NCBI GenBank assembly: GCA_018267955.1
Contig: JAFDXL010000002.1
Span: forward strand, 62,001-126,000
Origin: Bacteroidota bacterium
GTDB lineage: Bacteria; Bacteroidota; Bacteroidia; Chitinophagales; Chitinophagaceae
Length of the DNA stretch: 64,000 nucleotides
Reading direction: 5' to 3'
The number at the start of each line of letters is the position of its first letter. Position 1 is the stretch's first letter. This document shows positions 31,434 to 35,010 of the stretch, piece by piece. Below the pieces are notes generated by a model. The model did not search any database and was not told where the DNA came from. It saw nothing but the letters and a program-made list of their open reading frames with translations. Both the position numbers and the translations under genes were made by a program.

Positions 31434-32165
31434 CTATATCATTTTATACCGGTCAAGAATCGCACTTACTTTTTCCTTATAAGTAGGACCTATAACAAAT
31501 TGTCTGTCTTTTAGTTTTATCGCATTCCCTTCTATTTCTGATATGTAGTTTAGATTTACAATGTTCGACTTGTTTATCCTGATGAATTGTGGCAATACAA
31601 TAAGCTGATTCTCTATATTCTTCATAGTGCTGTACACCACAAAACTTTCGTCGCCCACATACAACTTCATATAATCCTTCAATCCTTCTACAAGCCACAG
31701 CTTGTTAAGCTCTATTTTTACCAGTTTGCCGTTTGCCTTAATAAACATCACATTTTCTTCATCCCGTCCTGTAGCGCCATCGGCAATATCTGGCTGTTTT
31801 GCATTCGGTGCCAGGTTCATCACCTTGCCTATCGCAGTAAAGAATCGTTCAAAGGCAATCGGCTTCAGCAAATAATCCACGGCATTCAGTTCATAGCTCT
31901 GTACCGCGTATTCTGCATATGCAGTTGTAAAGATTACATATGGCAATTGCCTCAACGATTTTAGAAAGTCTATTCCGTTTATTCGGGGCATATTTACATC
32001 AACCAGCAGCAAATCAATTGGCTTGCTCATAAGTACCTGTTGCGCTTCAAAAGCATCTTTACATTTACCTACCAGTATCAAACCAGGTATCTGGTTTATG
32101 TAACCTTCCAATACATCTCTTGCGAGTGGCTCATCGTCGATGATGAGCACTTCTAAAGGTTTCAT
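31434..32165 (-). CDS. LytTR-family response regulator
   Basis: 243 residues. Receiver domain about 1-120 with the acidic pair 'IIDDEP', phospho-acceptor D56 in 'LLLVDVNMPRING', and the conserved 'TTAYAEYAVQSYELNAVDYLLKP' block (T at about 85, K at about 107). A LytTR DNA-binding domain is at about 140-243 ('NGKLVKIELNKLWLVEGLKDYMKLY'). It overlaps the sensor kinase gene by 4 bp (ATGA), so they form a translationally coupled two-component pair. Targets unknown. Confidence 0.93.
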   Translation of the reverse strand: MKPLEVLIIDDEPLARDVLEGYINQIPGLILVGKCKDAFEAQQVLMSKPIDLLLVDVNMPRINGIDFLKSLRQLPYVIFTTAYAEYAVQSYELNAVDYLLKPIAFERFFTAIGKVMNLAPNAKQPDIADGATGRDEENVMFIKANGKLVKIELNKLWLVEGLKDYMKLYVGDESFVVYSTMKNIENQLIVLPQFIRINKSNIVNLNYISEIEGNAIKLKDRQFVIGPTYKEKVSAILDRYKMI

Positions 32166-33217
32166 TTAAGGCTCAGTTTTAGGTCCACAATATACTCATT
32201 AGCGTCAGCAGTAATATCCAGGGTATATTTGCCAGGATATAACAATTGTAAGCGTTTACGCAGGTTCTCCATACCTATCCCACCAATATTATTTACGTTC
32301 CCCATGCTGGCATCATAGCCATTCCTTGAATAGATCTGAAATTCTTCGTTTAAAATAAAGCATCTGTATTCAATATCTGCTGCTGAATTGTTTCTGCCAT
32401 GTTTAAAGATATTTTCGAGTACAGGAAGCCAAAGAAGAGGGGGCACCATGTAATCCCTATCTGCATTGATGGTAAATGTAACATTATCTATATCAGATAA
32501 TCTAAGCAATTCCAACTCTATATAGGCATTCATGATCTCCTTTTCCCGCCTGAATGAAACTTTGGTAGTATTACTCTCGTATAAAAGATACCGGAGAATA
32601 GAGGACAATTGCAAAATGGCATTGGGTGTAGTATCGGTTTTCTTCAATGCCAGCGCATATAAATTATTAAGGGTATTGAATAGAAAATGTGGATTCAACT
32701 GGTTCTTTAAAAAATCAAGTTCTATTTCCAGTTGTCTTTTCTTTATTACAGTTACTTCATTCTGCTTTCTTCTATAGTCATTGGCATACCAGAGAAGGGT
32801 AAATATCAATAAGTAAACTATAAAAAGGAAGGTATGTACAAAAGCAAGAACAGGAGGTTCTTTTATTGCACGCTGTAGTACAGGCACCCATGCGGTTTTA
32901 AAAATATTGATATCCGGATGGTACAACGCCTGTTGTTCTATGATCAAAACAGATGCGTAAACAGATGCTGCAAGCGTAATGCTGATGCTAATAAAATACT
33001 TGACGTATCTCTTTCTTGCCAGAAGAAATGGAATGAAAACTAGGTTATTCAGATACAACAGGCCAAGTAACAAAACAAATAATATACTGAAGTAGCTTAA
33101 TTCGGCAAGCGAGTAGGAGAACTCATAATTGGAGAACCTTGTAAGAATAATGATCAGCCAGAAATAGATGTTACGGGCAAGGCGGCTAAATGCAGTATTT
33201 ATAATCTTCTTCCACAT
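32162..33217 (-). CDS. LytS/YehU-type sensor histidine kinase
   Basis: 351 residues from the ATG at 33217; a TTG at 33268 would add 17 residues without a recognisable motif. About four transmembrane helices in the first 150 residues, then a coiled linker and the His_kinase (PF06580) block with the phospho-acceptor His in 'LNPHFLFNTLNNLYAL', and a degenerate ATPase domain ('PPLLWLPVLENIFKHG', 'GIGMENLRKRLQLLYPG'). It pairs with the adjacent LytTR regulator. No extracellular ligand domain is present, so the signal is probably sensed in the membrane. Confidence 0.92.
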   Translation of the reverse strand: MWKKIINTAFSRLARNIYFWLIIILTRFSNYEFSYSLAELSYFSILFVLLLGLLYLNNLVFIPFLLARKRYVKYFISISITLAASVYASVLIIEQQALYHPDINIFKTAWVPVLQRAIKEPPVLAFVHTFLFIVYLLIFTLLWYANDYRRKQNEVTVIKKRQLEIELDFLKNQLNPHFLFNTLNNLYALALKKTDTTPNAILQLSSILRYLLYESNTTKVSFRREKEIMNAYIELELLRLSDIDNVTFTINADRDYMVPPLLWLPVLENIFKHGRNNSAADIEYRCFILNEEFQIYSRNGYDASMGNVNNIGGIGMENLRKRLQLLYPGKYTLDITADANEYIVDLKLSLK

Positions 33218-33471
33218 TGTATTAATGGTATTCTTAGCGAAGGAAGTCCTTATGGGCTTATTTGCCAATAAGTTTCGACAAGTTACATTTTTAGCCTGAC
33301 GAAAATAAGTTATTACCCGACAAGCAAGGTAAGGCTACAGAATCTGCAGTAAAATCAGCCAGTTGGCACTTGGTCGAGAGTTCGATGACACTTATCTAAA
33401 AAAGTTTTCAAGCAGTTCCCTCTGCAATTCCTTTGCCTCATATTCTTCAACAATCAACTAAACTACTTTGT

Positions 33472-34392
33472 ATGAAAAAAATTATCTTGTCCGCTTCACT
33501 TCTCTTATTATTCAGTGCCTGCAATGTATTCAAATACTCGGGCAGGGGCGATCTTGCCGTAGCAAATTTTAAAACAGAAATGCCTTTTCAATTATTAAAA
33601 GATATGGCTATTGCAATACCGGTTAAAATAGGCACAAGTGCTACGAGTTTCTTTTTCCATTTCGATACACATGCTGCGGAAAGCGCTTATAATGCCGGCA
33701 GCCTGTCTGATAACCGCCATATCACCTTTCTCGGAACAAGCAGTTTAAAAATAAGTACTACTTCGGGCGAAAAAATAGATCGTCAATATTACAATGCCGA
33801 CTCTGTTTACATCGGCAATGTCCTGGTTACAAATGCATCGTTACTTCGCATCAATGAAAACCGGGACAAAAAAGATACAGTATACCCTAACATGGATGGA
33901 ATACTAGGATTAAGTCTTTTAAGAAAAGGTATCTGGAAAATAGATTTTGAAAACAACACCCTGACATTCGCAAGCAGCATGGATTCTTTGCAGGATGTTT
34001 CAGATAAAATAAAATTTGCAGAGAGCAGTGTGTTCGACATATTCAGCACAAAAGTGCAGCTTAATGGGCTTACAGAAAAAGTATCTGTAGACTTTGGAAC
34101 AAATGCCGGAATATTTTTACCGCTCGAGGACATGCAAAAAATGAACAGCTTCGGAAAAGCAGAAGTGAAGCAAAGCTCGAAAAAAACAGCCGCAGGTATA
34201 TCATCCGAAACAGGTTACCGCCTGCCAGACGAACGCGTGTCAATCAATGGCCACACTTTTAATGTAAGAGTGATTGGAAGTAAAAACCAAACGGAAGCTG
34301 TTATCGGCCTGTCATTTTTCAAACAGTTTCGTTACGTGATCCTCGATTACCTTAATGGTATTATGTACATTTCCGGCACTACTAAAGCATAA
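33472..34392 (+). CDS. Lipoprotein with two retropepsin-like (aspartyl protease) lobes
   Basis: 306 residues from the ATG at 33472, chosen because it opens a lipoprotein signal ('MKKIILSASLLLLFSAC', Cys about residue 17). Two repeats resemble bacterial retropepsin-like domains: lobe 1 has 'FHFDTHAA' and 'GILGLSLLRKGIWKIDF', lobe 2 has 'VSVDFGTNAG' and 'VIGLSFFKQFRYVILDY'. The catalytic triplet is normally DT/SG; here it reads D-T-H and D-F-G, so the Asp residues remain but the following glycine is altered or displaced. Proteolytic activity is doubtful. Single gene, followed by a strong hairpin. Confidence 0.75.
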   Translation: MKKIILSASLLLLFSACNVFKYSGRGDLAVANFKTEMPFQLLKDMAIAIPVKIGTSATSFFFHFDTHAAESAYNAGSLSDNRHITFLGTSSLKISTTSGEKIDRQYYNADSVYIGNVLVTNASLLRINENRDKKDTVYPNMDGILGLSLLRKGIWKIDFENNTLTFASSMDSLQDVSDKIKFAESSVFDIFSTKVQLNGLTEKVSVDFGTNAGIFLPLEDMQKMNSFGKAEVKQSSKKTAAGISSETGYRLPDERVSINGHTFNVRVIGSKNQTEAVIGLSFFKQFRYVILDYLNGIMYISGTTKA

Positions 34393-34404: not shown

Positions 34405-34436
34405 TGATATCCCCAACCAATAGGTTGGGGATATCA
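34405..34436. terminator. Terminator after the retropepsin-like gene
   Basis: Perfect 14-bp stem (TGATATCCCCAACC / GGTTGGGGATATCA) with an AATA loop, 12 bp after the stop codon at 34392. The T tail is weak on the plus strand. Confidence 0.65.
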
Positions 34437-34479: not shown

Positions 34480-34487
34480 TATCTTTG
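34480..34487 (+). promoter_or_regulatory. -7-like box upstream of the GTTAGCA arrays
   Basis: TATCTTTG matches TAnnTTTG. The nearest TTG upstream is at 34451-34453, a 26-bp spacer, longer than the usual 19-21. If active it would transcribe rightward through the repeat arrays. Confidence 0.3.
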
Positions 34488-34562
34488 TATCGTTCTGTTC
34501 TTTGACATACTGTAAACCCAATTACGATCATTTATCACTCCAGTCATCTCACAAAAAAACAG

Positions 34563-34698
34563 GTCAGCAAAGGTTAGCAATGGTTAACAAAAGTTAGCAA
34601 TCGTTAGCAAAAAAAGCCATATCCGCGCCTATACACTCATGTTTTAAAAGGTTAGCACCGGTTAGCTGCACGTTAGCAGAGGTTAGCAAAAGTTAGCA
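34563..34698 (+). repeat. Two helically phased arrays of GTTAGCA (10 units)
   Basis: Ten same-direction units start at 34563 (GTCAGCA), 34573, 34583 (GTTAACA), 34593, 34603, then after a gap at 34651, 34661 (GTTAGCT), 34672, 34682 and 34692. Within each group of five the spacing is 10 bp (once 11), one turn of B-DNA. The last unit ends 6 bp before the 3' end of the convergent minus-strand gene. It is neither a CRISPR (units too short, no long spacers) nor a terminator. The phasing suggests a cooperative DNA-binding site, but nothing in the window names a partner. Confidence 0.85.
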
Positions 34699-34704
34699 TT
34701 ATAC

Positions 34705-35010
34705 CTATGCGCTCCAGCTTTCCACCGGTAATATAAAAGCATGTATAGGATAGCTAAGCTCCGTTTGTTTGTTATACGCATTCACCGAAGACATTAGTTC
34801 CGCTGCCTGCTCATCACCCGTAAAGCTAAAAAACAAAACAGCCTGGTAGGTTTCTCTATCCCTGCCAAACCAGTTGTTCTGCAAATTCACAGGCAGGATA
34901 TTATGGCCCGTTGTTTCCGATTCCGTGAATAATGGTACCTGTGCTTTCTTAAAGATGGCAGCAATATCATCTCGGTATTCTACTATCCCGGTTACAATTA
35001 CAAGTTTCAT
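34705..35010 (-). CDS. Small PII-like/ferredoxin-fold protein, function unknown
   Basis: 101 residues, no signal peptide. Starts 'MKLVIVTGIVEYRDDIAAIFKKA' with the beta-alpha-beta look of PII-like (DUF3240-type) small signalling proteins. It also contains 'AVLFFSFTGDEQAAELMSSV', another beta-alpha unit. Related proteins are often encoded with metal-efflux genes, and here it lies at the far end of the copper island after a DedA protein (45 bp spacing). The assignment is tentative, as PII-specific T-loop motifs cannot be aligned by eye. Confidence 0.55.
   Translation of the reverse strand: MKLVIVTGIVEYRDDIAAIFKKAQVPLFTESETTGHNILPVNLQNNWFGRDRETYQAVLFFSFTGDEQAAELMSSVNAYNKQTELSYPIHAFILPVESWSA

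Follow-up and report, generated by a model that had tools for sequence, protein, structure and literature searches.

Dispersed helix-phased repeat arrays as candidate docking sites of stand-alone TerS-like proteins on Bacteroidota chromosomes

Introduction

REPs are palindromes tied to a tyrosine (Y1) transposase and are often present in more than 100 copies per genome. RemA, another protein with which comparison is made below, is said to form a ring. Rings are also formed by the phage small terminase subunit (TerS). As described in PMC4737164, TerS rings have a circumference of ~300 Å, with adjacent helix-turn-helix (HTH) motifs about one B-DNA turn apart, and in the wrapping model for the ring ~100 bp of DNA are accommodated; the DNA-binding domain of SF6 is reported there to have little preference for pac repeats (PMC4737164). 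According to PMC9611059, phage TerS binds pac only weakly in vitro, where the interaction is difficult to examine, the models proposed fail on specificity, wrapping among them although it fits the ring, and the recognition of specific DNA by TerS is unclear and controversial after four decades.

Two arrays of GTTAGCA-like units, spaced at one turn of the helix, were analysed in the window (the whole stretch of DNA under study, 64,000 nucleotides of a Bacteroidota genome). The element at the window locus is dispersed, and the copy there has no TerS gene; neither this nor the likely cognate protein family, that of stand-alone terminase small subunits, is visible from the window alone.

Results

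The window locus

Direct reading of the sequence confirmed the ten GTTAGCA-like units of the original prediction, with their starts and their steps of 10-11 bp. Array 1 (34563-34609, + strand) has five units at a 10-bp step (10, 10, 10 and 10 bp), namely GTCAGCA at 34563, GTTAGCA at 34573, GTTAACA at 34583 and GTTAGCA at 34593 and 34603. Array 2 (34651-34698, + strand) has five units with steps of 10, 11, 10 and 10 bp, namely GTTAGCA at 34651, GTTAGCT at 34661 and GTTAGCA at 34672, 34682 and 34692. The exact word makes up 7 of the 10 units and one-base variants the other 3 (34563, 34583 and 34661). Both arrays were picked up by Tandem Repeats Finder; the lone word GTTAGCA is unremarkable in the window (15 observed, 10.3 expected). 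The spacer between the arrays (34610-34650, + strand) is 41 bp long, and that of the ortholog 40 bp, at an identity of 0.66.

The arrays were found, as had been claimed, in the gap between convergent genes (a + strand open reading frame ending at 34392 and a − strand one at 34705-35010). The further statement that they are not at a promoter stands for both flanking genes but not for the arrays themselves, which have their own predicted promoter ~75-210 bp upstream. The -7-like box that had been noticed at 34480 was recovered by reading the sequence as TATCTTTG (34480-34487, + strand), which we take to be a plausible Bacteroidota -7 box. It is followed by the leader start GTTCTTTGACATACTGTAAAC (34497-34517, + strand), in our judgement presumably similar to an rRNA-type boxA, and by a short diverging leader (34518-34562, + strand) in which no conserved reading frame was seen. 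A hairpin at 34406-34435 (read by eye) is probably the terminator of the upstream gene. The exclusion of a CRISPR, with its long identical repeats, unique spacers and Cas genes, was upheld (units of 7 bp with gaps of 3-4 bp), as was that of a terminator. A gene for a LytTR-type response regulator and one for a LytS-like kinase (names by eye) lie at 31434-33268 of the window, 1.3-3 kb upstream of the array.

A dispersed family

A search of the genome and its relatives showed the site to be neither unique nor unconserved. GTTAGCANNNGTTAGC with ≤1 mismatch gave 47 matches in the 4.18-Mb genome (G000), against 4 for the reversed control. Three units with ≤2 mismatches gave 30 matches in G000, against 0 for the reversed control, which bears out the claim of non-random phased repeats, and 34 in G010, a sister species of the same genus; the reversed control gave 0 matches in G010 and one in G018, and the three-unit pattern was absent from the other 97 of the 99 genomes scanned. 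In both genomes the matches group into ten loci, and these pair one-to-one by their flanks (family A). A locus usually consists of a promoter and a leader, followed by array 1 with 2-5 strict units, the spacer and array 2 with 2-6.

At 7 of the 10 G000 loci, the distance from the start of a loose -7 box to array 1 is 80-84 bases (1.2% of random points), and the strict box TAnnTTTG is found at this distance in 5 of the 10 (0.25% of random points). The exact word GTTCTTTGACATACTGTAAAC occurs three times in G000 and three times in G010, always inside a family-A element, and two near matches per genome begin elements of family B (described below); TCTTTGA is present at seven of the ten A loci and at four of the eight B loci. 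Mean identities in the ten ortholog pairs, which like the close species are not independent of each other, were 0.91 for the promoter/boxA-like zone, 0.80 for the leader, 0.92 for array 1, 0.77 for the spacer, 0.84 for array 2 and 0.82 for the region after it. Whole 10-bp units were gained and lost between ortholog loci; array 2 of the pair L060/L061 scored 0.41, with a unit absent from one member. Leader peptides were considered and rejected, since a one-base indel in the L052/L069 leader breaks the frame and makes a coding leader unlikely. At 6 of the 10 A loci the gene to the right runs on the opposite strand, so that the neighbouring genes do not explain the sites; 4 of the 10 loci lie between convergent genes.

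Helical phase

Spacer sequence drifts in all ten ortholog pairs (identity 0.63-0.81), and spacer length changes by 0 in eight pairs and by 1 bp in two. The lengths at the ten G000 A loci were 26, 39, 41, 49, 49, 50, 51, 51, 60 and 70 bp, and 9 of the 10 fall ≤1 bp from a multiple of 10. Rayleigh p values of 0.002-0.007 for this periodicity are nominal, with periods scanned, n = 10 loci and the starts of array 2 chosen by hand with a relaxed unit. Units recur at ~87, 98, 109, 119 and 129 from the first unit, across loci with spacers unrelated by eye. Because spacer length is kept while spacer sequence drifts, the conserved phase points to DNA that would be read on a fixed face; part of the quantisation of spacer length may stem from decayed 10-bp units inside the spacer. 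The initial interpretation is partly supported: the sequence bears out a cooperative, helix-phased DNA-binding site, and the nucleoid or segregation role offered with it would be a more speculative reading.

TerS-like genes next to arrays

At one family-A locus (L057, G000:C10:210.6 kb) the short leader is missing and array 1 begins directly after the stop codon of a gene (G000:C10:210009-210575) for a protein of 189 aa, TerS-A. The profiles that it matches are those of the terminase small subunit, PHROG_51 (E=1.1e-13) and PF03592 (E=1.6e-5). The ortholog in G010 has the same gene-array arrangement. Family B, with the same promoter type and the words ACTAGCAAAAACTAGCATTTTCTAACATTTT, was found via the boxA-like word at 8 G000 loci. 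At 1 of the 8, the array and the stop codon of another TerS-like gene overlap; the product of that gene (TerS-B) is 38% identical to TerS-A over 150 aa. Relative to the Pfam cut-off of 26.1 bits, TerS-A (26.0) is 0.1 below and TerS-B (14.5) well below. For TerS-C, the third of the paralogs, with 44% identity in the part that matched, GTTAGCATTGTTAGCAAATGATAACAACA begins 14 nt after the stop codon (12 nt in G010), and GTTAGCAAATGATAACAACA was found again, exact, at two more loci behind promoter-like boxes, so that family C has at least 3 loci. The fourth, weak TerS-like gene of G000 is without such an array, and no boxA-like word was found in the 330 bp before the start of the TerS-A, TerS-B and TerS-C genes.

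Among 26 aligned TerS-like proteins, 26 matched PHROG_51 and 23 matched PF03592 at E≤0.001, and dN/dS values of 0.04-0.17 in five pairs indicate purifying selection. The AlphaFold model of TerS-A (alignment of 26 rows; mean pLDDT 83.8) has an HTH region, a long helix, a beta hairpin and a last long helix. When the model was compared with the PDB by Foldseek, ranks 1-14 were all SPP1-like phage small terminases, the oligomerisation core included (probability 0.97-1.00; best E 1.1e-3); the core was superposed at 2.2-3.0 Å over ~50 columns and the whole chain poorly (rmsd 13 Å). TerS-A is thus predicted to fold like an SPP1-type phage TerS. By sequence, TerS-C retrieved no TerS chain from the PDB (six rows at chance level); tblastn against phages gave three weak matches in Streptococcus/Enterococcus phages, two of them annotated as terminase small subunit.

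TerS-like genes were found in 13 of the 15 genus genomes (2-18 matches each) and, in the wider family with TerS-A as the query, in at least 4 of 147 genomes and 2 of 100 genera; TerS-C as the query finds more. The 18 matches are in one genome, G014, where the paralogs L269, L271 and L273 share a stretch of sequence that begins ~100 bp ahead of the start codon and runs to near the stop codon. Genes flanking the TerS genes and arrays look cellular (PyrR-, PurB-, PurL- and UvrB-like; names by eye).

Words predicted from TerS 3' ends

Words to be tested for dispersal were chosen beforehand from TerS 3' ends in other species, and the same genomes were then searched. ACTATCAAWWACTATCAAC (ACTATC family) matched G002 (11), G009 (10), G013 (10), G006 (9), G004 (4), G012 (7) and G011 (10), counts that include the TerS copy; each of these 7 of the 15 genus genomes has a TerS gene ending in the word, and 0 matches were found in the other 8. 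The seven are the genomes with that TerS clade (six by tree, G012 by TerS match and position), as judged with part of the TerS genes of the other eight fetched for the clade comparison. The reversed control gave 21 matches (G011, 9; G012, 7; G002, 2; G004, 2; G009, 1), which is not an independent background, because all 21 lie ≤12 bp from the true pattern, on the same arrays, and none elsewhere in the fetched loci. CTAACAATGTTAACAATTGTAAACA gave 6 matches in G014 (TerS copy included), 1 in G001 and 0 in the 13 others. Both dispersal predictions held.

In all, 59 ACTATC-family loci were fetched, 7 of them TerS genes. In the leaders of 19 representatives, identical 5-mers 10 bp apart numbered 39, against 6.4 expected in shuffles, a count that keeps L353 and possibly L401, apparent chance matches. 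Phased words were also noticed in ACTATC leaders (GTAACCNTTTGTAACC in L343 and L352, GCAACAAANNGCAACAAA in L348), and the TerS gene L306 is followed by TTGCAACAATTTGCAACAA. An element may thus combine binding sites of more than one TerS paralog. Phased repeats were significant (p<0.05) at 12 of the 33 TerS 3' ends tested; at the other 21, which include TerS-C (p=0.07) and L293 (p=0.09), they were not, so that TerS-array pairing belongs to some lineages only (A, B, C, ACTATC and G014). Most genes of the longer TerS proteins are without phased 3' repeats.

TerS-less copies

The TerS-less copies viewed mostly consist of a promoter-like box, a short leader and an array. Ahead of the array, a loose -7 box was found in each of the 9 copies of family A without TerS and in 6 of the 7 such copies of family B (chance 14% per 80 nt), the exception being L251. 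The copy L059 matches the promoter and first codons of TerS-A at 78 of 87 bases (score 125, shuffle maximum 29), and its ortholog L062 at 86 of 96 (score 136, shuffle maximum 25); beyond the match, a short unrelated stretch leads to the array. By its sequence, L059/L062 is an internal deletion of the TerS-A gene.

At a single place, promoter, TerS gene and array were found in G004 (L293) and promoter, leader and array in G002, G006, G009 and G013 (L349/L361/L365/L380), with a downstream gene (UvrB-like by eye) that is 94-95% identical between L293 and the others. Similarly, TerS genes of G011 and G004 (L300/L306) occupy the place of the TerS-less family-B element L251 of G000, the downstream gene being 85-86% identical.

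Other phased repeats

A pattern scan of genome contigs gave at least 117 stretches, including tandem 10-mers in unrelated bacteria that were taken as ordinary tandem repeats matched by chance. In many Flavobacteria (loci among L071-L187, e.g. L077, L084 and L111), GTTAACACNNGTTAACACNGGTTAAC, three words at a 10-bp step, lies upstream of the promoter of GLPGLI-like genes, which are divergent from genes that by eye encode an OmpR-like regulator and a histidine kinase; it is likely the operator of that two-component system, and these GTTAAC triplets were rejected as the same element, as their anatomy differs. On the chromosome of Candidatus Paraprochloron terpiosi, GTTAGCAAGTGTTAACATTTGTTAGC recurs after a common stretch (L079, L185 and L187; L141 matched) and is another dispersed helix-phased repeat family, a cyanobacterial one. 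Upstream of a purB-like gene, three genus members have unrelated tandem arrays, GGAACA at a 9-bp step (L202 and L204) and AGTACACAAAC at an 11-bp step (L209), which are local and not dispersed; the notion that the site upstream of purB always holds the element was dropped, other genus members being without the element there. Viral contigs (L193, L194 and L197) carry tandem 10-bp arrays of GTTAGCATCC or GTTAGCATAT.

Discussion

TerS docking as the best explanation

The arrays are best read as cognate DNA docking sites of the stand-alone chromosomal TerS-A, a reading made from sequence and held by us at a probability of about 0.68. It is favoured because arrays A, B and C adjoin the stop codons of TerS-A, TerS-B and TerS-C, because TerS 3' ends predicted the dispersed words, because TerS and TerS-less copies alternate at the same place between species, and because the spacers are quantised and kept and the geometry of the ring fits a one-turn spacing. 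Dispersal, conservation, the pairing of TerS with arrays in five lineages, the two predictions, the constraint on spacer length and the fold match are all computed results. The reading is weakened because only 12 of 33 TerS 3' ends are phased and because phage TerS is a poor precedent for sequence specificity. The modest best Foldseek E-value with its poor whole-chain superposition, the Pfam scores of TerS-A and TerS-B below the cut-off and the lack of a boxA-like word before the three TerS genes also count against it. Binding of these arrays by TerS is probable, and DNA, given binding, would probably be the bound form.

In the proposed mechanism, TerS-A would form a ring whose rim carries HTH heads at a spacing of about one turn of DNA. 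Each head would read one GTTAGCA-like unit, so that the ~ten units, in their two phased blocks, would engage about ten heads and be wrapped on, or bridged by, one or two rings. A ring that wraps DNA and reads its sequence would require long arrays with a word at every turn. The window locus would be a non-autonomous copy of 'promoter - TerS gene - array', reduced to promoter, short leader and array. As the most likely consequence, the bound ring would control or block the transcript starting ~75 bp upstream, which is favoured because the promoter there is conserved; that transcription control is the main role of the arrays is a tentative suggestion. An RNA role is possible because the leader has a predicted promoter and a boxA-like start.

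It may further be, as a single reading to which we give somewhat less than even odds as a whole, that several 'TerS + address' systems co-exist per chromosome in the genus, each paralog having its own helix-phased word at its gene end and at 2-10 other places, that TerS rings mark ~20 sites, and that recognition for packaging has been turned into chromosome-wide addressing for transcription control, chromosome folding or DNA transfer. If true, this addressing would show a route to specificity of the TerS ring, by one head per turn on phased repeats. With natural arrays in strict phase and a candidate protein to go with them, TerS specificity could be tested directly on a clean substrate, and several protein/word pairs would allow specificities to be compared.

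Alternative explanations

The copies could be relics of a mobile or gene-duplicating unit, in which 'promoter-TerS-array' spread, TerS-less copies are non-autonomous and the array is an end sequence required in cis for the spread, a situation similar to that of REPs and their domesticated transposase. The internal-deletion copy L059/L062, the alternation of TerS and TerS-less copies at one locus and the duplication of L269, L271 and L273 of G014 as units are consistent with such a history. We consider it unlikely as the explanation of the arrays: the A loci show vertical stability, all ten being matched in the second species, ACTATC loci cluster by their flanks across species, and arrays and promoters are under constraint. 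We know of no recombinase activity of TerS and of no enzyme for the spread. A relic origin is compatible with TerS binding, and both may be true together.

A family of small non-coding RNAs, with a promoter, a boxA-like start and single-stranded repeats that act as a sponge for an RNA-binding protein or a multi-seed antisense, in the manner of the 14-member FopS family of Bacteroides, is improbable. It would account for the element's own predicted promoter and boxA-like start and for repeats that run in the promoter's sense direction in the copies viewed, and paralogous multicopy sRNAs bound by RbpB are described in the phylum (PMC11697453). It leaves aside the arrays at TerS 3' ends in five lineages, and spacer steps of 10 bp that are kept despite sequence drift are not needed by an RNA. 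No Rfam family reached threshold: with Rfam 15 at gathering score, the 64-kb window gave only a tRNA, the window locus four sub-threshold matches (the best, Yfr10, at 29 of 43 bits, on the opposite strand over the upstream hairpin); at the ten element loci two matches stayed below threshold, and one tRNA was found nearby. Nor is there a common hairpin, as GUUAGC units can self-pair and ACUAUC units cannot (by eye). RbpB/FopS was tried as an explanation without result, literature matches listed for the word GUUAGC were unrelated, and the boxA literature gave nothing usable for Bacteroidota. Hairpins were also considered as the shared feature of the elements in their own right, and were rejected because, in RNA folding of 20 loci, GTTAGC units are able to pair with one another through G-U and those of the ACTATC family cannot.

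Slightly less probable still is an operator of an ordinary regulator that reads one-turn direct repeats, such as a response regulator of the OmpR/PhoB type, in place of TerS. Such operators have direct repeats ~10-11 bp apart just ahead of a promoter and a regulator gene nearby. The triple GTTAAC at 10 bp in many Flavobacteria, upstream of a promoter and beside a histidine kinase and an OmpR-like regulator, is a pattern of this kind, and the window has a LytTR-type regulator and kinase 1.3-3 kb upstream (by eye). The spacing fits, but the arrays are downstream of the element's promoter and in two blocks, their neighbours are unsuggestive (right-hand gene opposite at 6 of 10 A loci, 4 of 10 convergent) and no recurrent regulator gene was seen by eye beside the arrays in the flanks viewed.

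Packaging addresses, with the arrays and TerS as many starting points for the uptake of chromosomal DNA into a phage or a similar particle, are very improbable. TerS normally marks pac sites, at which the large subunit TerL cuts the bound DNA and packaging begins; in P22 and SPP1 these sites are located within the TerS gene or where it begins, as described in PMC9611059 and PMC4737164. No gene for a terminase large subunit or a capsid was seen in the flanks (by eye). A six-frame stop cassette, in which 10-bp steps would place TAG/TAA in all frames, was rejected, as GTTATC units without a sense stop keep the phase.

Comparison with known systems

No report of a similar dispersed element was found among the matches listed in the open-access full-text literature, searched without preprints. 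The closest described system is that of phage TerS with pac or cos (SPP1/SF6), which would share the protein family, the predicted fold and an array beside the gene, and whose ring geometry, as given in PMC4737164, fits the one-turn spacing of the arrays. Unlike phage TerS-pac, the proteins here are stand-alone paralogs, several per genome, among genes that look cellular by eye, and the arrays are dispersed over the chromosome as long, strictly phased repeats.

REP/REPIN elements with RAYT (TnpA-REP), the subject of PMC3116915, PMC8266576 and PMC2817692, likewise combine the gene of a domesticated protein with the same sequence dispersed without the gene. The elements here differ in having phased direct repeats, their own promoter, a TerS-like gene and ~3-11 copies per family. 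The FopS sRNAs of Bacteroides, from the same phylum, form a paralogous family of 14 copies with intergenic, antisense and 3'-end members (PMC11697453); unlike the elements here they are ~65-70 nt long, and the portion of PMC11697453 available makes no mention of phased arrays. RemA, a different protein, also binds repetitive DNA, in repeats that PMC8481266 calls poorly conserved. Chromosomal TerS paralogs, several with a dispersed helix-phased word of their own, fit neither the known TerS-pac pairs, which are phage modules, nor REP/RAYT.
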